Assembly (NCBI GenBank): GCA_015075305.1
Contig: JABTUS010000001.1
Location: forward strand, 1 to 64,000
Direction: 5' to 3'
Length of the DNA stretch: 64,000 bases
Source: Opitutaceae bacterium
GTDB lineage: Bacteria > Verrucomicrobiota > Verrucomicrobiia > Opitutales > Opitutaceae
Below the pieces are notes generated by a model. That model saw only the letters and a list, made by a program, of their open reading frames with translations. It was not told the origin of the DNA and did no database searches. Both the position numbers and the translations under genes were made by a program. Below are positions 37,216 to 51,751 of this stretch, piece after piece (within the stretch, counting starts at the first letter, position 1; each line of letters opens with the position of its first letter).

Positions 37216-37475
37216 TCTCGAGTTTGCTTCGTCGCGCAGCCCACTGACTCCGGTGCTGTTGGACCACTGCCGGTTGCCGATCGAATCGTAGGCGCAATGT
37301 CAGCGACCCGGCAGCGACGCGGTCTGGCTCGTCGCATTCGAGCCCGGGTAGCCGATGCCCGCGGTCAATTCCCCGCGTCCATTGTAGGCAAACTGGCGGT
37401 TTGTGGCGTCGCCATAATCCGCATAGGCGGAGCCCTCCTGTAGCATTCATGGCTATCTCAAATACCACAAACGTT
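37216..37475 (-). pseudogene. RHS/YD-repeat gene fragment (copy 1)
   Basis: On the minus strand from about 37425 the frame reads YADYGDATNRQFAYNGRGE, then LTAGIGYPGSNAT, a stop codon, and AYDSIGNRQWSNSTGVSGL. YD-repeat (RHS) proteins carry the AYDxxGNRxxS pattern, so this is a decayed piece of such a gene. The frame is broken by an internal stop and by a one-base shift upstream. Similar fragments lie at 43262-43537 and 51190-51335. The fragment runs directly into palindromic repeats on one side and into a methyltransferase frame on the other. Confidence 0.7.
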
Positions 37476-37633
37476 AGGGGCCGACCCCGTGGAAATGGCT
37501 CTTCACGCCACTGCAGTCGGCGCAGATTGAAATCGAGGCATCCGGCAAGGTTCGACTCCGGGAGAAGGTTGTCGCACAGGCACCCGCATCAAGCAGCGAA
37601 ACCCACGACCGCGAAAAACGGCACCTAGTTCCC

Positions 37634-43262: not shown

Positions 43263-43537
43263 TCTCTCAAATTTCCCTTGTTGCCCAGCCCGCTGACACC
43301 GGTGCTGTTGGACCACTGGCGGTTCCTGATGGAATCGTAGGCGTATTCATGGCGGCGACCCGGCAGCGGCGCAGCCTGGATCGCCACATTCGTACCGAGG
43401 TAGCCGATCCCCGCGGTCATTTCGCCACGTCCATTGTAGGCTTACTGGCGGTACGTGGCGTCGCCATAGTCGGCACAGGCCGTGCCCCTCTTGGAGTATT
43501 CGAGGTCATCTCGAATACCACAAAAGTTAGGGACTGA
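43262..43537 (-). pseudogene. RHS/YD-repeat gene fragment (copy 2), 5' exon of the group II intron
   Basis: On the minus strand: EYSKRGTACADYGDATYRQ, an in-frame TAA, then AYNGRGEMTAGIGYLGTNV, RRHEYAYDSIRNRQWSN and STGVSGL. It shares most of its sequence with copies 1 and 3 and keeps a longer intact frame in the AYDS region. Its 5' end on this strand is at 43537, exactly where the group II intron begins. Confidence 0.7.
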
Positions 43538-45465
43538 GTGCGTCCATGAAAACCAACAACCATGAGTGAAAGTCTCATCCGGCCAATTACGTCATTTAGC
43601 CGGCAACAACCGGAAACTGCGTTCCCGTGAGGGAAGGTGGAAAGCAACCGGACAATGAAAAGGACAGCCCGTAACGACAGTGAAGCTCATCCAATGAGCC
43701 CCGATAAACATAGTTACCCGCGCAGCCGAACCACTTCAGTCTTGGTGAAGGCTGACAGGGTTGGACGCTGGCAAACCCGATGAACAGTTGGAGAGGCCAA
43801 AATGACGATGGGTCCAATCAACCGCGCGGCGGGGTCGGCGAGCACGGGATGTCCGGAAGGTTGGGGGAAATAAGTGGAGAGAGCTCCGCGGGTGGATGTA
43901 CATCCAACGCCCGGACCAACCTCGCGCCCGCGGGGAAGGCCGACGCGGCTCGTGGAGCAGTCAGATCGGTCCATAGTAGCGAAGAAGGTCGTAACGAGAC
44001 CGGAGCGAAGGGACCGAACTTGAACGCAGGGAACAGCGTGGCAAGGGACGAGGCGATGGCTCCAATGCTGGGGATAAAAACGCCGATCAAAGTCCAAGCG
44101 CTACAACGAACCCTATATCGCAAAGCGAAGGAGAACAAACGGTGGCGGGCGTGGAGTCTCTATGGAGACTTGTGCCGCTGCGACGTGTTGGAAACCGCCA
44201 TGAATGCAGTGGTGGCCAAGGCAGGAGCGGCAGGAATTGACGGGATAACGACCGGGCAGGTGAAGGCCAGCGCGGGAAAATTCCTTGAAGACCTGCAAGC
44301 GCAACTGAAGGACGGGGGCTATCGACCCGGTCCGGTTAAACGCGTCTGGATCGACAAGGCCGATGGAAAACAAAGGCCGCTGGGAATCCCCAACGTAATC
44401 GACCGGATCGTGCAGATGGCGCTGCTGATCGTGTTACAACCGATCGTTGAGGCTGACTTCGATGAAGGCAGCTTTGGGTATCGGCCGGGGCGCAAGGCCC
44501 ATGAGGCGCTTGACGCCATCCGAAATCAACTGCGGCAGGGAAGAACGGAGGTCGTGGATGCAGATTTAAGCAGCTACTTCGATACGATCGACCATGCTGG
44601 ATTGCTCCGGTTGGTGGCGCGGCGCGTGAGCGACGGCAGCATCCTGAGATTGGTGAAGCTGTTCCTTAAGGCCCCCATTGTGGAGGAAAAGAATGGCAGG
44701 AGTAGATATCACAAGAATGACCGGGGCACGCCGCAAGGCGGAGTCCTTTCACCGCTGCTGGCCAACCTGTATCTAAACAGTTTGGACCACGGAGTGAACG
44801 GCCATCCGGAGCTGGATGCGAAGCTTGTCCGCTACGCGGACGACTTCGTGTTGTTGTGTCGCCCCGGAAAGGGCGGCGCAATGTTGGAGCGACTGAAGCA
44901 GTATCTGCATGCCAAGCGACTGAGGCTAAACGAAGCGAAAACCCGGCTGGTCAACTTCCAGCAGGAGCCCTTCCGCTTCCTTGGCTTCAATTTCGCAAGG
45001 CGACGCAGTCCGCGCACGGGCAACTACTTCGTGCATGTGGAACCCAGCCCGAAAGCCAGGCAGCATCTGCGCGATGCCGTCCGTGATGAACTCAATCACT
45101 GGACGAAACATCGTAGCTGCGCCGAGGTGATCAGACGGGTGAATCGGATCACCCGAGGTTGGTCCAACTACTACCATTACGGACACTCCACCCATGTGTT
45201 TGGCAGCCAGCAACTCTGGCTGCGAAATCGCGTGCGACGGTGGCTATGGCGGAAGTATGACTGCAAGCATGGCCTGTTCAGTTTCTTCACCGACGCGCGG
45301 CTGGTCGGACAATATCAACTCTGGTCACTGCCGCTCACCTGTGCATGGCGCCGATAGCTTTGCGACGTATGTTCCCGGAAAGCCGGATGCGGCAAATCCG
45401 CACGTCCGGTTTGATGAGGGGCGGAAGCTGGCCGACTCTTTTCGGTCAGCTTCTGCCTACTCTAC
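43538..45465 (+). mobile_element. group II intron with reverse transcriptase
   Basis: The 5' end GTGCG (43538-43542) fits the group II GUGYG consensus. The 3' end is CTACTCTAC ending at 45465. Domain V is readable at about 45380-45413 (AAAGCCGGATGCGG, then CCGCACGTCCGGTTT). Domain VI follows, with GAAGCTGGCCGA and TCGGTCAGCTTC pairing and a branch-type A at 45459, seven bases from the end. The ORF lies within domain IV. Joining the flanks gives GGACTGA/CCCCGTGGG, matching the uninterrupted GGCCGACCCCGTGGA at 37478-37492, which supports both boundaries. Total length 1928 nt. An in-trans relic of the same end is at 49405-49442. Confidence 0.92.
44056..45357 (+). CDS. ltrA: group II intron reverse transcriptase/maturase
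   Basis: The product has 433 residues if it begins at ATG 44056, which has AAGGGA/GAGG just upstream; the frame is open back to 43780 but that part is structural intron RNA. RT blocks are present: AGAAGIDGITTGQVKA, RVWIDKADGKQRPLGIPNVI, GSFGYRPGRKAHEALDAIRN, VDADLSSYFDTIDH, GTPQGGVLSPLLANLYLNSL, and the catalytic RYADDFVLL near residue 260. The maturase (X) part is RGWSNYYHYGHSTHVF. No HNH endonuclease domain follows, so target-primed mobility would use another primer source. Intact, so the element may be active. Confidence 0.95.
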   Translation: MAPMLGIKTPIKVQALQRTLYRKAKENKRWRAWSLYGDLCRCDVLETAMNAVVAKAGAAGIDGITTGQVKASAGKFLEDLQAQLKDGGYRPGPVKRVWIDKADGKQRPLGIPNVIDRIVQMALLIVLQPIVEADFDEGSFGYRPGRKAHEALDAIRNQLRQGRTEVVDADLSSYFDTIDHAGLLRLVARRVSDGSILRLVKLFLKAPIVEEKNGRSRYHKNDRGTPQGGVLSPLLANLYLNSLDHGVNGHPELDAKLVRYADDFVLLCRPGKGGAMLERLKQYLHAKRLRLNEAKTRLVNFQQEPFRFLGFNFARRRSPRTGNYFVHVEPSPKARQHLRDAVRDELNHWTKHRSCAEVIRRVNRITRGWSNYYHYGHSTHVFGSQQLWLRNRVRRWLWRKYDCKHGLFSFFTDARLVGQYQLWSLPLTCAWRR

Positions 45466-45760
45466 CCCCGTGGGTATGACTGCTGGAGGGGCATGCTTTT
45501 TCATGCCCACGGATCGCGCGTTGCGCCACGACGCCGGTGCATATTCTCATCGGCCCATTCCACTCTTCCCTTTCCGCGTGTCTCTGCGGTCAAGCGCTCC
45601 GATTCCATGCAATCCGTGGAATCCGCGCCATCCGTGGTCACAACGTTCGATTCCGAGCAACACGCGCCACCGGCGCACACGACGAGAGCCCAAGGCAACG
45701 CCTTGGGAACTCAAAACGTTCACAAGACCAAGCCTGGTGAGGAGCGAGGAATTCCTCGTG
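45466..45760. other. 3' exon and gene-free stretch before the TonB receptor gene
   Basis: About 295 bp with no supported gene. It starts with CCCCGTGGGTATGAC, the 3' exon of the intron. A 7-bp stem (GGGCATG 45489-45495, CATGCCC 45502-45508, loop CTTTTT) follows. Text rich in ATCCGTGGAATCCGCG-type near-repeats covers about 45600-45645. At 45689-45707 is CCCAAGGCAACGCCTTGGG, a variant of the palindromic repeat seen elsewhere. Confidence 0.55.
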
Positions 45761-48700: not shown

Positions 48701-49228
48701 AACAGAGGTCGTGAAATAGTTGCGCGTGTTCGTCGCGGACACCAAGCCGCGCACGCGGGTGGAGCTCGTGGAGCCGGTGCGCGAACCCCTGGCATCAAAC
48801 GTCCCGGAATCGGTGTTGGAACCCGCGGACGAAAAGTTTCCCTGCTCGCCCGCAACCTCGACGTTGGGTACGATGCTCAAGAGCGATCCTGCATCCGTAG
48901 CCCCGATGTCGGACATCATCTGGCTGGTGAGGATCGACATCGAGGCGCCCACATCTCGAACGTCCGTGCTGATGCGCGTGCCAGACAGCGTGGAGGTTGC
49001 CACCCATGTGTCGTCGGTGGCTGTGACCTCGAACGGACTCAATTGGACGACCGCTTCATCCGCCGCGTGTTTGGGTGCGACCGGACCCGATGGGGCTGGG
49101 GGCGGCGATTGCAGTTCCTTGGGGGGCGGTTCGGCGGCAACCCCGGAGAGAAGACAGGCGACGCCAAAAATCTGGCATTGCGCGAGCAGTCGGAAGGCTG
49201 CCGAGTAGGGGGCGAATCGAGGATTCAT
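45761..49228 (-). CDS. TonB-dependent outer-membrane receptor
   Basis: The product has 1155 residues from ATG 49228. A signal peptide (cleaved near SGVAA, residue 32) and a Pro-rich spacer precede VVQLSPFEVTATDDTWVATS, the TonB-box/plug start common in Opitutaceae. The plug domain has GTRISTDVRDVGASMSILTS, DIGATDAGSLLSIVPNVEVA and VTVNRGPNSVLFGLGTAGGV. The rest is a 22-strand-type barrel ending with the aromatic TNTFKF. Such receptors import siderophores, cobalamin or glycans with energy from TonB-ExbBD; no partner gene is nearby, so the substrate is unknown. It is much longer than the 700-residue siderophore receptors. It is flanked by the group II intron and an intron relic. Confidence 0.93.
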   Translation of the reverse strand: MNPRFAPYSAAFRLLAQCQIFGVACLLSGVAAEPPPKELQSPPPAPSGPVAPKHAADEAVVQLSPFEVTATDDTWVATSTLSGTRISTDVRDVGASMSILTSQMMSDIGATDAGSLLSIVPNVEVAGEQGNFSSAGSNTDSGTFDARGSRTGSTSSTRVRGLVSATNTRNYFTTSVPFDAYNTSRVTVNRGPNSVLFGLGTAGGVIENSLNRPLGRNAYQAQVGTSDNGGLRAVIDVNQVLVKDRLMMRMAALDEDRRYRQEEAFRRDRRFYLAADYRIRKHKRDAVLGETLLRGYFEAGHINRINPDPIPPSTGWDWWYSLDRFYQLIGKYPGINSMEDIPAAYKTVANGGVWIPKATIKNTNRNTYNHTIQLTPQFISLSQVYVNPQAAGPGGVVGGLAGGIGRVSWPAPRNSQDPKMTSGNWNNLSGFTLSTLSNRDVFDYANHLYYGDTDTIKDRFNVKELTLEQSFLNRTIGFEASYNLQDTDAYRYTPYSSQRGRRLGVDISEELSVTAQLPSQAGNGQAAVLANPNLYHPMMAIAAFDQSFNEVRAETLRATMYATHDFRNDTKARWGALLGAHTLSALLQSSKTDSQGLSQRLNWKSNDVNLRDANLLGGTFNSQTMQVSSIVYVGDSVQNTTGPEQVRLNFPLAKSVVPYAGQTGEYAIYDRTARQMKAISATTEWMNSGIGTVRQNIDSDAFILQSRWLQDHIVTIVATRLDKVANFSIIPGGLIANPDGTFDLVNRRLDSTPNLETSARTNTKSLVARFPEKLLKLPLGADLRFTYFDSDTFQPVSTGRSLDGSELSSPTGSTREYGVILELLDQRLALRGSFFDTGALNARAGNQLNVLESWVNEQWLTRMSQAERAGLAVADIPGAAAAGITTYDQIFNAVLTLTPESYRSAAGITGTSLNRTTGLVSVPGISGLTSTADVVTKGMELEISGSLTPNWNIAINLAKQEAVQTRIQPGVLEFAEGVEARLREAGLYNVVDAPVSGGAATTFGERWENNVLSPLRNQRGFEGVVSAEQRKWRWNVTTRYDFRTGPLSGVKVGASARWQDKVAIGYPYIYNATGDIVSDIAHPYFGPTEFNLDVFASYQRRIFKRYQWSIQLNVRNLIGGDPDQLIPISANPLGEIQAARLPPERQVILTNTFKF

Positions 49229-49656
49229 AGGGCGGGGGAGGAAAAATCACGTGCAGCGATTTGCGGGATGGAGGACCGACTCAAACATCAGCACGCAGTC
49301 GACGGAACTCTCTATGAGATCAGATATCGCGCGTGCCAAGCGCCACGGCGCTGACACCGTTCAGAAGAATCGGCCGTCAACCACTCCATTGAGCATTTCC
49401 ACGAGGTAGAGTAGGCAGAAGCTGACCGAGAAGAGTCGGCAAGCCTCAGATTGCTCCACTCGATCAAAAATCTTGGTCTTGGAGTAGAAACTTCTCTGAC
49501 TCTCTCATTGGCACTCTCCAACGTTGCTACTCCTCGCACGTCCGCGGTCACGACGGAGCGTGCTCCTCCATTTGACCGCTTCTGACGGATCTTCCCCGAT
49601 TTCGGCGAATTAAACCTTAGATTTATAGGTATGATCCGGAGACATAGGTAACAAAC
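49229..49656. other. gene-free region with inverted intron relic and partial IS end
   Basis: No gene is supported. At 49405-49442, read on the minus strand, is a 38-base copy of the intron domain VI/3' end (36 of 38 identical by my alignment), followed by CTCGTGGAAATG, the same 3' exon type. Near 49635-49653 is TCCGGAGACATAGGTAACA, a degenerate copy of the IS terminal repeat beginning four bases before the IS proper. Upstream of the TonB gene I see no clear promoter. Confidence 0.6.
49405..49442 (-). mobile_element. relic of group II intron 3' end (domain VI)
   Basis: On the minus strand it reads GCCGACTCTTCTCGGTCAGC then TTCTGCCTACTCTACC, the same as 45429-45466 except for two bases. The 3' flank (CTCGTGGAAATGCTC) also matches the 3' exon type of the full intron. 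Only about 38 nt remain, so it is inactive. Confidence 0.75.
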
Positions 49657-50927
49657 TGTCCGGGGACATGGGTTACACTTTCAGGCTATGGCCTGGAACG
49701 AAGAAACCCTCATGGAACAGAAGCATCGGTTTGTCAGTCTCGCGGCCACGGGCCGCTTCACGTTTACCGAATTGTGCGCGGACTTTCACGTCAGTCGGAA
49801 GACCGGCCACAAGTGGTGGAAGCGTTACCGTCGGGAAGGCACCGCGGGATTGCGCGAGCGCAGCCGCCGTCCGCAAGGATGCTCGCACCAGACCGCTGGG
49901 CAGATCCAGGGGCTGATCGTGCGGTTGCGCCGCAGGCACCGGACGTGGGGGCCGAAGAAGCTGCGCAAACTGTTGCGCCGCGACCACGGCATCCGGCGGC
50001 CGCCGGCATGCAGCACCATAGCAGCGATCCTGCGGCGTCACGGCTTGAGTCAGCGTCCGCGACGCAAGCCGGGCCTCTACACGGTGCCGCGCCGTGCACT
50101 GACGACACCGACGCATCCGAACCATGTCTGGACGGTGGACTTCAAAGGCTGGTTCACTCTGGGCAACGGGCAGCGCTGCGATCCCCTGACGGTGTGTGAT
50201 CTGTTCAGCCGCTACTATCTGGCCTGCCGAGCCCAACCCAATCAGCAGTTTGCCGGAACACTGCGGACCTTCCGCAAGATCATGCGCTTGCATGGGTTGC
50301 CCGAGATCATCCGGGTGGACAACGGCACGCCCTTCGCCTCTCTTGCCTTGGGCCGGCTCTCCGCCCTGAGCGTGTGGTGGATCAACCAGGGCATCGTCGT
50401 CGAGTTCATCCAACCGGCTTCACCGCAACAAAACGGTTCTCACGAACGCGCTCACCGCGATCTGAAGGCCGAGGCCACGCAACCGCCGTCCCCAACCTGG
50501 TCCGCCCAGCAGCGGCGATTTGATCGCTGGCAGCACCTGCGAAACCATGTCCGGCCACATGAAGCGCTGGGCATGCTCTGCCCGGCTCAAATCTACCGTC
50601 GCAGTCCCCGCCGCCTGCGCGAGAACGACACCGCGGTGCGCTACCCGAAGGACTGGCTGGTGCGGCGCGTTTCCGCAACAGGCAAGCTGTGGCATGACGG
50701 ACACGACTACGCTCTTGGTGAAATCTTCGCTCATTGCCGGGTGGCGTTGCGCAAGGATTCCACCGGCCGCACCGAGCTGCACTTTGCCAACGTACATCTC
50801 GGCTACCTCGTCTTTGATCCGGCAGCGCGATTCCGGCCTGCGGCCTACATCGCGCTGCCGGATCAAAAACCTCTCGCCAAATCACACACAAAAACTAAAC
50901 AAAAAGTGTAACCTATGTCCCCGGACA
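49657..50927 (+). mobile_element. IS481-family insertion sequence
   Basis: The ends carry 25-bp inverted repeats: left TGTCCGGGGACATGGGTTAC.. at 49657-49681, right (inverted) at 50903-50927, with one mismatch. Between them a single transposase gene fills almost the whole element (1271 bp). Outside both ends are further partial copies of the repeat (49635-49653 and 50928-50945), so the element sits in a nested arrangement; a clean target duplication is not obvious. Confidence 0.88.
49688..50911 (+). CDS. IS481-family transposase, DDE type
   Basis: The product has 407 residues from ATG 49688. An N-terminal helix-turn-helix (FTELCADFHVSRKTGHKWWK) binds the ends. The integrase core has WTVDFKGWF with the first catalytic Asp at about 151, RVDNGTPFASLALG with the second Asp at about 211, and NGSHERAHRDLKAEA with the Glu at about 253. 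The chain is intact, so the element may still move. The C-terminal tail is Lys-rich. Confidence 0.93.
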   Translation: MAWNEETLMEQKHRFVSLAATGRFTFTELCADFHVSRKTGHKWWKRYRREGTAGLRERSRRPQGCSHQTAGQIQGLIVRLRRRHRTWGPKKLRKLLRRDHGIRRPPACSTIAAILRRHGLSQRPRRKPGLYTVPRRALTTPTHPNHVWTVDFKGWFTLGNGQRCDPLTVCDLFSRYYLACRAQPNQQFAGTLRTFRKIMRLHGLPEIIRVDNGTPFASLALGRLSALSVWWINQGIVVEFIQPASPQQNGSHERAHRDLKAEATQPPSPTWSAQQRRFDRWQHLRNHVRPHEALGMLCPAQIYRRSPRRLRENDTAVRYPKDWLVRRVSATGKLWHDGHDYALGEIFAHCRVALRKDSTGRTELHFANVHLGYLVFDPAARFRPAAYIALPDQKPLAKSHTKTKQKV

Positions 50928-51751
50928 AAGTGTAACCCATGTCCGAATCAAACCATAAGGGTAAATCAGCTCAGCCGAAGGGGTCAAACCTCACTTTTCG
51001 CACTTTTCGCACTTTTGAAGACCAAACGACGATCAGCAATCTTACCGGCATGGAAGAATTGCGAGTGTCGATTCGCCGGCGTCATTAAAGCGGGAACTCG
51101 CTGAGGAAGCGCATCGGAAAAGATGATTCGAGGCAAACAGAGCCAGCCCGACGAATGACTGTCTGCGGTCGTCCAAAATTCAACGGGCATTTCCATGCGG
51201 TCGACCCCGAAACCTTTGTGGTGTTCGAGATGACCATGAGTACTCGAAGAGGGCGTCGCCAATGCGGACTATGGCTGCGCCACGTACCGGCAGTTTGCCT
51301 ACAATGGACGCGGGGAATTCACCGTATTTGTGTGCATCGACAGATGTGATCAGATTGTGCGATGCATAGGGGAGATTGAGCTGGCGGCGTCTTGTAATCG
51401 GCGTCCTCTGGGCACGACAGAGCGCGCCCCTCCATTGGCTTGGGCAAGTGCGGGTATCGACTATCGCGAGCGGTGTACGGTGGCTAGGGTATTGGAGGAA
51501 ATTCGAGAAAATTGTACCGCCCCTTCAGGGCTCTCTATTTTCGGTTCACCTCTGAACCCATGGCGTTGCCGTGGGCTGGGCTTGAATCGCCCCGTTGGGG
51601 CTGAGGCATCCTCCGGCGAGCGGCACAGCCTGTCCCTATCGGCCGTTCACGCCTGAACCCATTGCGTTGCGATGGGCTGAGGTTGGAACGCGCTGTTGGG
51701 GCTGGTGGAGATGACCCTCTGCCGAACGCACCCTTGCCGACTCCGGCGCGC
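50928..51751. repeat. gene-free region with RHS fragment and palindromic repeats (copy 3)
   Basis: No gene is supported. A three-fold 9-base repeat (ACTTTTCGC-type) lies near 50990-51015. The RHS fragment occupies 51190-51335. The dispersed 90-bp element (CGTCTTGTAATCGGCGTC) is at 51354-51443. Palindromic repeats follow in opposite orientation to arrays 1 and 2: CCGCCCCTTCAGGGCTC near 51518-51535, CCCATGGCGTTGCCGTGGG at 51557-51575, CGCCCCGTTGGGGCTGAGGC near 51588-51607, and CCCATTGCGTTGCGATGGG at 51658-51676. Confidence 0.75.
51190..51335 (+). pseudogene. RHS/YD-repeat gene fragment (copy 3)
   Basis: On the plus strand: RDDHEYSKR, a one-base shift, then NADYGCATYRQFAYNGRGEF. It matches the ADYGDATYRQ/AYNGRGE region of copies 1 and 2 but is in the opposite orientation and stops after the GRGEF segment. 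Confidence 0.6.

Follow-up and report, generated by a model that had tools for sequence, protein, structure and literature searches.

Group II intron remains beside a TonB receptor gene

The window, i.e. the whole 64,000-nucleotide stretch of DNA that was analysed, carries a group II intron and, on the opposite strand and on the other side of a TonB receptor gene, a short piece that resembles the 3' end of this intron. The question raised by this locus is whether the piece, hereafter the relic, is what remains of a second intron insertion at the same kind of site, as a sequence-only reading had proposed, or whether it came from another source.

The resident intron and its copies in the genome

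The intron, its protein and the two further pieces found in the genome are:

43538..45465, plus strand: main group II intron, 1928 nt, GTGCG...CTACTCTAC, matching Rfam RF02005 and RF00029
43780..45357, plus strand: intron-encoded reverse transcriptase/maturase, 525 aa, matching TIGR04416 and Pfam RVT_1 and GIIM
C8:211089-211579: 5'-truncated intron copy, 99% identity to the intron
49406..49447, minus strand: relic, comprising the loop, the 3' arm, the upper 5' arm and the terminal CTACTCTAC of intron domain VI (D6)

The conserved ribozyme domains of group II introns are present in the main copy (43538-45465), with RF02005 scoring 54.9 bits at 43569-43844 (cut-off 49) and RF00029 48.8 bits at 45378-45465 (cut-off 40), and the minimum free energy fold of its D6 shows a single unpaired, bulged A seven bases before the end. 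The encoded protein scored 371.7 bits against TIGR04416 (cut-off 300), and Pfam listed no endonuclease domain for it. The ends of the intron were set by an uninterrupted copy of the repeat in which it lies and by a full copy in the relative G005 (82%). Sequences of relatives part right after CTACTCTAC; the intron therefore ends there and the exon starts with the next base, which in the relic gives an exon starting CTCGTGGAAATG.

When the whole intron was used to query the genome (E <= 0.01), five matches appeared: the main copy; the C8 copy, whose 5' side is cut off by an IS481-like element; the relic; and two short matches to domain V that belong to more distant introns.

A fragment of domain VI on the minus strand

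The relic had been described as domain VI plus the intron end, with 36 of 38 bases of the minus strand at 49442-49405 identical to 45429-45466. Direct comparison confirmed this count, and extending it to 49447-49405 against 45424-45466 gave 40 of 43 identical bases, with a longest identical run of 25. The repeat search of the window returned the same arms for the relic and the main intron end (93% complementary). Against the whole 4.87-Mb genome the relic was matched with E = 1.3e-11 (121-nt query) and E = 2.1e-10 (1941-nt query), so that its likeness to the intron end is not due to chance and its description as domain VI plus intron end stands.

The likeness ends at 49447, with no clear likeness left beyond, and the relic lacks the lower foot of the 5' arm as well as everything upstream. 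Its hairpin still forms, although more weakly than in the main copy (-15.3 versus -35.6 kcal/mol). With the whole intron as query, no further piece of domains I-V or of the ORF of this copy was found in the genome; the relic is thus a fragment and not an intron, and its homology, the exact intron 3' end and an exon from the same target place it among group II intron fragments. The border between intron and exon proposed earlier was right in recognizing the 3' end of the intron family, but reading it as CTACTCTACC followed by CTCGTGG counts one C twice. Simple scans of 49200-49660 detected no promoter-like or terminator-like sites, and the relic shows no sign of function now.

Exons and the target repeat

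The exon of the relic can be compared with two copies of the target repeat in the window that carry no intron:

37433..37500, plus strand: uninterrupted copy of the target repeat, ACCACAAACGTTAGGGGCCGA / CCCCGTGGAAATGGCT
49389..49405, minus strand: relic 3' exon, CTCGTGGAAATGCTCAA, resembling the downstream half of the target repeat
51185..51324, minus strand: third copy of the target repeat, diverged and uninterrupted, on the far side of the IS element

The insertion point of the intron corresponds to 37484/37485 in the uninterrupted copy, and the repeat search of the window gave the direct repeat 37433-37484 / 43486-43537. The target is a palindrome of the form CCAC...GGGG-loop-CCCC-GTGG, with the intron inserted at the junction of the loop and its 3' foot. 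A query with 37440-37520 listed 21 genome matches at E <= 10, weak ones included, many of which had the same form when read. The target repeats form the end of a larger repeat whose reverse frame, as read from the ORFs, is a putative RHS/YD-repeat remnant.

The exons start with CCCCGTGGGTATG in the main copy, CCCCGTGGGAATG in the C8 copy and CTCGTGGAAATG in the relic, the last differing from both others; read further, they are CCCCGTGGGTATGAC, CCCCGTGGGAATGAC and CTCGTGGAAATGCTC, respectively. Scored against the half-site 37485-37500, the relic exon reached 8, the main exon 10 and the C8 exon 12, and a score of 8 was reached by 8 of 29,985 sampled window positions. The window holds the motif CGTGGRWATG at the three named sites and nowhere else (3 found versus 0.63 expected; 1 of 100 shuffles reached 3). 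The likeness of the relic exon to the target half-site is above chance. The exon had earlier been likened to 37488-37500; it does resemble the target half-site, but the matching CCCGTGGAAATGG begins at 37486 and not at 37488. Against an intron insertion speaks that the relic exon is one base shorter than the target (CTCGTGG versus CCCCGTGG). Neither the 5' half of the target repeat nor a 5' exon lies directly beside the relic, where the sequence is unrelated. The repeat copy at 51185-51324 was considered as the 5' half of the relic site, with the IS481-like element replacing the intron body, and was rejected: that copy is uninterrupted.

Surroundings of the relic

The IS element next to the relic has several full and broken copies in the genome:

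49628 to about 50958: IS481-like element, also at C2:454724, C8:211580 and C8:257109

Its assignment as IS481-like scored 208.3 bits, which is below the cut-off of 224. On C8 a copy of this IS directly adjoins the truncated intron copy, with the relative orientation seen at the relic. That the IS made the relic was nevertheless rejected, as it has other copies and fragments and as the 180 bp between IS and relic are unlike the C8 locus. A short repeat beside the relic (about 49517-49579) has at least 45 further matches in the genome, often clustered, a lower bound obtained from 40 scored of 105 candidates.

The receptor gene (Plug domain) is located between inverted intron ends, as the sequence-only reading had stated, and is surrounded by inverted repeats of up to 119 nt. 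The bracketing is correct as geometry, but nothing was found that gives it meaning, and it looks incidental. Relatives of the receptor exist (best 48%, in G008), but upstream of the receptor gene conservation was seen in none of six relatives, where no match was better than E 0.5. Of the checks that had been proposed, the genome search for more truncated intron ends returned the C8 copy and the relic.

Palindromic elements made of domain VI in related genomes

Related genomes contain palindromes of 53-82 bp that consist of D6 alone, with its 5' foot replaced by a mirror of the intron 3' terminus, and that seem to have spread independently. Their layout is GTAGAGTAGGC, D6 body, GCCTACTCTAC: where the intron has the 5' foot GAGGGGC (GAGGGGT in G145), the palindromes have GTAGAGTAGGC, which mirrors the 11 terminal bases of the intron. 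The RNA folds into a long closed hairpin, and no D5 was found directly upstream in the flanks inspected. The elements are:

L155-L171, L172, L173, L179, L180, L185, L186, L191, L198 and L252: D6 palindromes
L164:6275-6342, L162:567-633 and L252:1501-1553: examples of these palindromes

The 13-base pattern CTGCCTACTCTAC gave 26 matches in 11 of 141 genomes, the window's own included. Its reversed control gave 17 matches, one each in 17 of the 141 genomes, so that single matches mean little without their context. Read singly, the 26 matches comprised 11 with D5 upstream (that of G021 being split by extra bases), one with a broken D5 (G011), two tails only (G074:C12 and the relic), nine in palindromes (eight in G073, one in G039) and three unrelated ones (G136, G094 and G048). 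Of the eight in G073, one element accounts for two with its two ends, and another two are truncated by the end of a contig. G001:C370 was discarded as a chance match within an unrelated stretch, and G009:C85, like G136, G094 and G048, showed no intron end by eye. At G021:C1:2135132-2135202 (L055 and L122) lies an intron end whose domain V has extra bases between its strands; the remaining intron was not recognised.

Scanning the genome collection for the palindrome frame gave 17 stretches, of which 13 carry a Verrucomicrobiota name in their title, three are named 'bacterium' only and one is from Hydrogenedentes; L156-L159 are the G073 elements again. One stretch, L167 (CAMAWP010000047.1, from G144), is titled Akkermansia muciniphila, a label that may be wrong; G144 is listed with 7.3 Mb, which we take to be far above the size of that species' genome. 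The palindromes are patchy in distribution, since a scan of the phylum with GTAGAGTAG N34-64 CTACTCTAC matched a single one of 387 sampled genomes (G091), whose palindrome is built from another D6 subfamily. Among viral contigs, the long palindrome frame had 0 matches, an 18-base frame gave eight stretches, none with a D6-like body by eye, and no relative of the intron protein was found. One palindrome compared with plasmids gave no match, and Rfam recognised two tRNAs only on 16 loci. No literature on D6 palindromes was found in titles and the beginnings of abstracts, a body of text in which subscription papers are mostly uncovered and whose silence is weak evidence.

The bodies of 26 elements were compared with 20 of the 22 intron D6 sequences at hand. 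Palindrome bodies of six genomes match introns of their own genome at 83-100%: both elements of G141 are identical to the D6 of a same-genome intron over 50 of 50 bases, four of the six G145 elements match own introns at 92-98% (the other two match best with a G146 intron, at 96%), and the best same-genome matches are 93% in G144, 94% in G091, 92% in G146 and 83% in G039. Three G143 elements match a G145 intron at 96-98% and the G142 element a G146 intron at 91%, no intron D6 having been read in G143 or G142; two Gx485 elements match a G011 intron at 85%. Body matches are weak for five G073 elements (70-74%), two of G147 (65%) and the one of Hydrogenedentes (70%), and for these eight elements descent from D6 rests on ends and form, because their bodies match at 65-74% only. 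We regard it as very probable that a class of D6-only mobile inserts exists in the relatives. The sequence-only reading had counted the occurrence of the piece in a relative without any link to the intron as evidence against an intron origin; this applies only in part, for at least the terminal 13 bases do occur in palindromes that are not introns, but these palindromes are themselves made of D6.

Borders of the palindromes and their mode of movement

Direct repeats (8-9 bp, or TNA) border many of the palindromes, though not all. A direct repeat of at least 7 bp flanks six of the eight Opitutaceae-type elements (G039, G073, Gx485), which was reached in 0 of 20,000 shuffles; these repeats are 8-10 bp long. 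The 16 other elements have TNA on the left in 15 cases and on the right in 14, and identical border triplets in nine (on average 4.4 in shuffles, with nine reached in 184 of 20,000). Thirteen elements have TNA on both sides; the two N agree in nine of them and are complementary in none. These border tests took in 8 + 16 of the 26 elements, the Hydrogenedentes and G091 elements being left out. Target-site duplications as made by transposase-driven miniature elements are therefore present, though not at every element.

TNA also follows 12 of 15 intron ends in G047, G141, G144, G145 and G146 (counted by eye); introns of the window's own group are mostly followed by C. The 5' exons of introns in the TNA-flank genomes were not found, the copies there being truncated or ending at contig ends. 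Every exact GTAGAGTAGGC in 10 genomes belonged to a palindrome arm or an intron end or was one of a few isolated sites; nowhere in them did two lie 1-3 kb apart (these drafts break at repeats, and ends may vary), and no transposon with the same exact ends as the palindromes and a gene between them was seen. Transposition is suggested by the short target duplications, whereas the lack of a visible partner and the shared flank preference point to movement by the intron. That the flanks stem from snap-back copying of exon bases is contradicted in the TNA group by the same counts of identical and complementary N; only G091, with flanks GACCA / TGGTC, fits it.

The rewritten 5' foot could arise if reverse transcription stopped near the D5/D6 border and the D6 cDNA folded back on itself; the resulting inserts might then be moved by the intron's machinery or by an unknown transposase. 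Both ends of such D6 inserts would resemble the intron 3' end, and they would be inserted, with short target duplications, at flanks like the introns' own 3' exons.

Origin of the relic

Group II introns join DNA by their 3' end and are then copied from there, so that an insertion that failed early, or one whose 5' side was deleted, keeps the last hairpin joined to the 3' exon. Our preferred reading, with a probability of about 0.75, is that the resident intron inserted separately into a further copy of the target repeat, and that the relic is the D6 of this insertion together with the exon bases next to it. Its insertion would be a separate one, rather than a duplication of the main junction, because its exon differs from those of both the main and C8 copies. 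What is observed is the identity with the intron end, the position of that end, the target-like exon and the lack of further intron parts; the insertion itself is what we infer, and in it the 3' end would have been joined first, after which the process may have failed early or the 5' side may have been deleted later. Since the intron protein shows no endonuclease domain, it cannot be presumed that a cut bottom strand served as primer. Truncated 3' ends of introns also exist in relatives:

G074:C12: 5'-truncated intron end, only D6, starting at the D5/D6 border
G011:C11: 5'-truncated intron end, 73 nt, broken within D5
G145:C79: 5'-truncated intron end, part of D6, starting inside D6
G074:C72: 5'-truncated intron end, about 545 nt, starting in the ORF

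Because of these, a copy that was short from the start accounts for the relic as well as one that was shortened later. Of the proposed second insertion at the same kind of site, the target-like and distinct 3' exon is retained; that the copy was "later almost fully lost" goes beyond the evidence, as no other piece of it is found in the genome and no 5' half-repeat lies directly beside it. Together with the two other copies, the relic points to three entries of the intron into this kind of repeat in the genome.

The palindromic D6-only elements of the relatives count against an origin by direct insertion, as a D6 fragment may have another source. In Verrucomicrobiota, D6 may repeatedly give rise to D6-only mobile inserts from different resident introns, with the relic as an unfinished or decayed member; we consider this membership unlikely, a judgement that concerns the relic and not the class, which was rated apart. 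It is likewise unlikely that the relic is a decayed D6 palindrome, hence a miniature element rather than an intron copy. Such palindromes do occur in the same family, and the 5' arm of the relic agrees with the mirrored arm at 12 of 19 ungapped positions, with a semi-global score reached by about 1.6% of shuffles; yet the normal intron arm, aligned with gaps, fits it about equally well (about 1.8% of shuffles at 24 nt, 6.7% at 19 nt). Moreover, neither a direct repeat of 8 bp nor a TNA pair was seen by eye at the relic borders, its exon is that of the intron's target, and its genome holds no intact palindrome, GTAGAGTAGGC being present only at the main intron end and the relic. The relic is not demonstrably one of the D6 palindromes.

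Copying from another intron junction by recombination or template switching would have produced the relic without an insertion of its own, and the window is rich in direct and inverted repeats; as the relic exon is unlike those of the main and C8 copies, we hold this to be improbable. A chance likeness, for which only the shortness of the relic speaks, is practically ruled out by the genome searches (E = 1.3e-11 and 2.1e-10) together with the likeness of the exon.

Comparison with known systems

The majority of bacterial group II intron copies are truncated or inactivated according to PMC4424553, and in PMC5894124 loss of the 3' end is the general course, FRE652 being a 5' fragment. Like the truncated introns of these two accounts, the relic is an incomplete, inactive copy near other mobile DNA; it keeps the 3' end only, which is the opposite of the course given in PMC5894124. 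For retrohoming of linear intron RNA, PMC3280974 describes 5'-intron truncations at integration junctions and template switching by the reverse transcriptase. These products share the 5' truncation with the relic, but they come from experiments with Ll.LtrB, whereas the event behind the relic is deduced from sequence, with about 42 nt left.

By itself the relic is ordinary, one more truncated group II intron copy; the D6 palindromes of the relatives are the more unusual part and worth following. Miniature inverted-repeat elements are short, dispersed and palindromic, and many are bordered by direct repeats. The D6 palindromes have all of this in common with them, many showing border direct repeats, and differ in being built, body and ends, from intron D6, which in several genomes is that of resident introns. 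Should intron ends regularly yield such palindromes, a retroelement would be able to found another class of small mobile repeats, and it would become possible to test how some palindromic repeats of bacteria originated, because parent intron and daughter palindrome share one genome.
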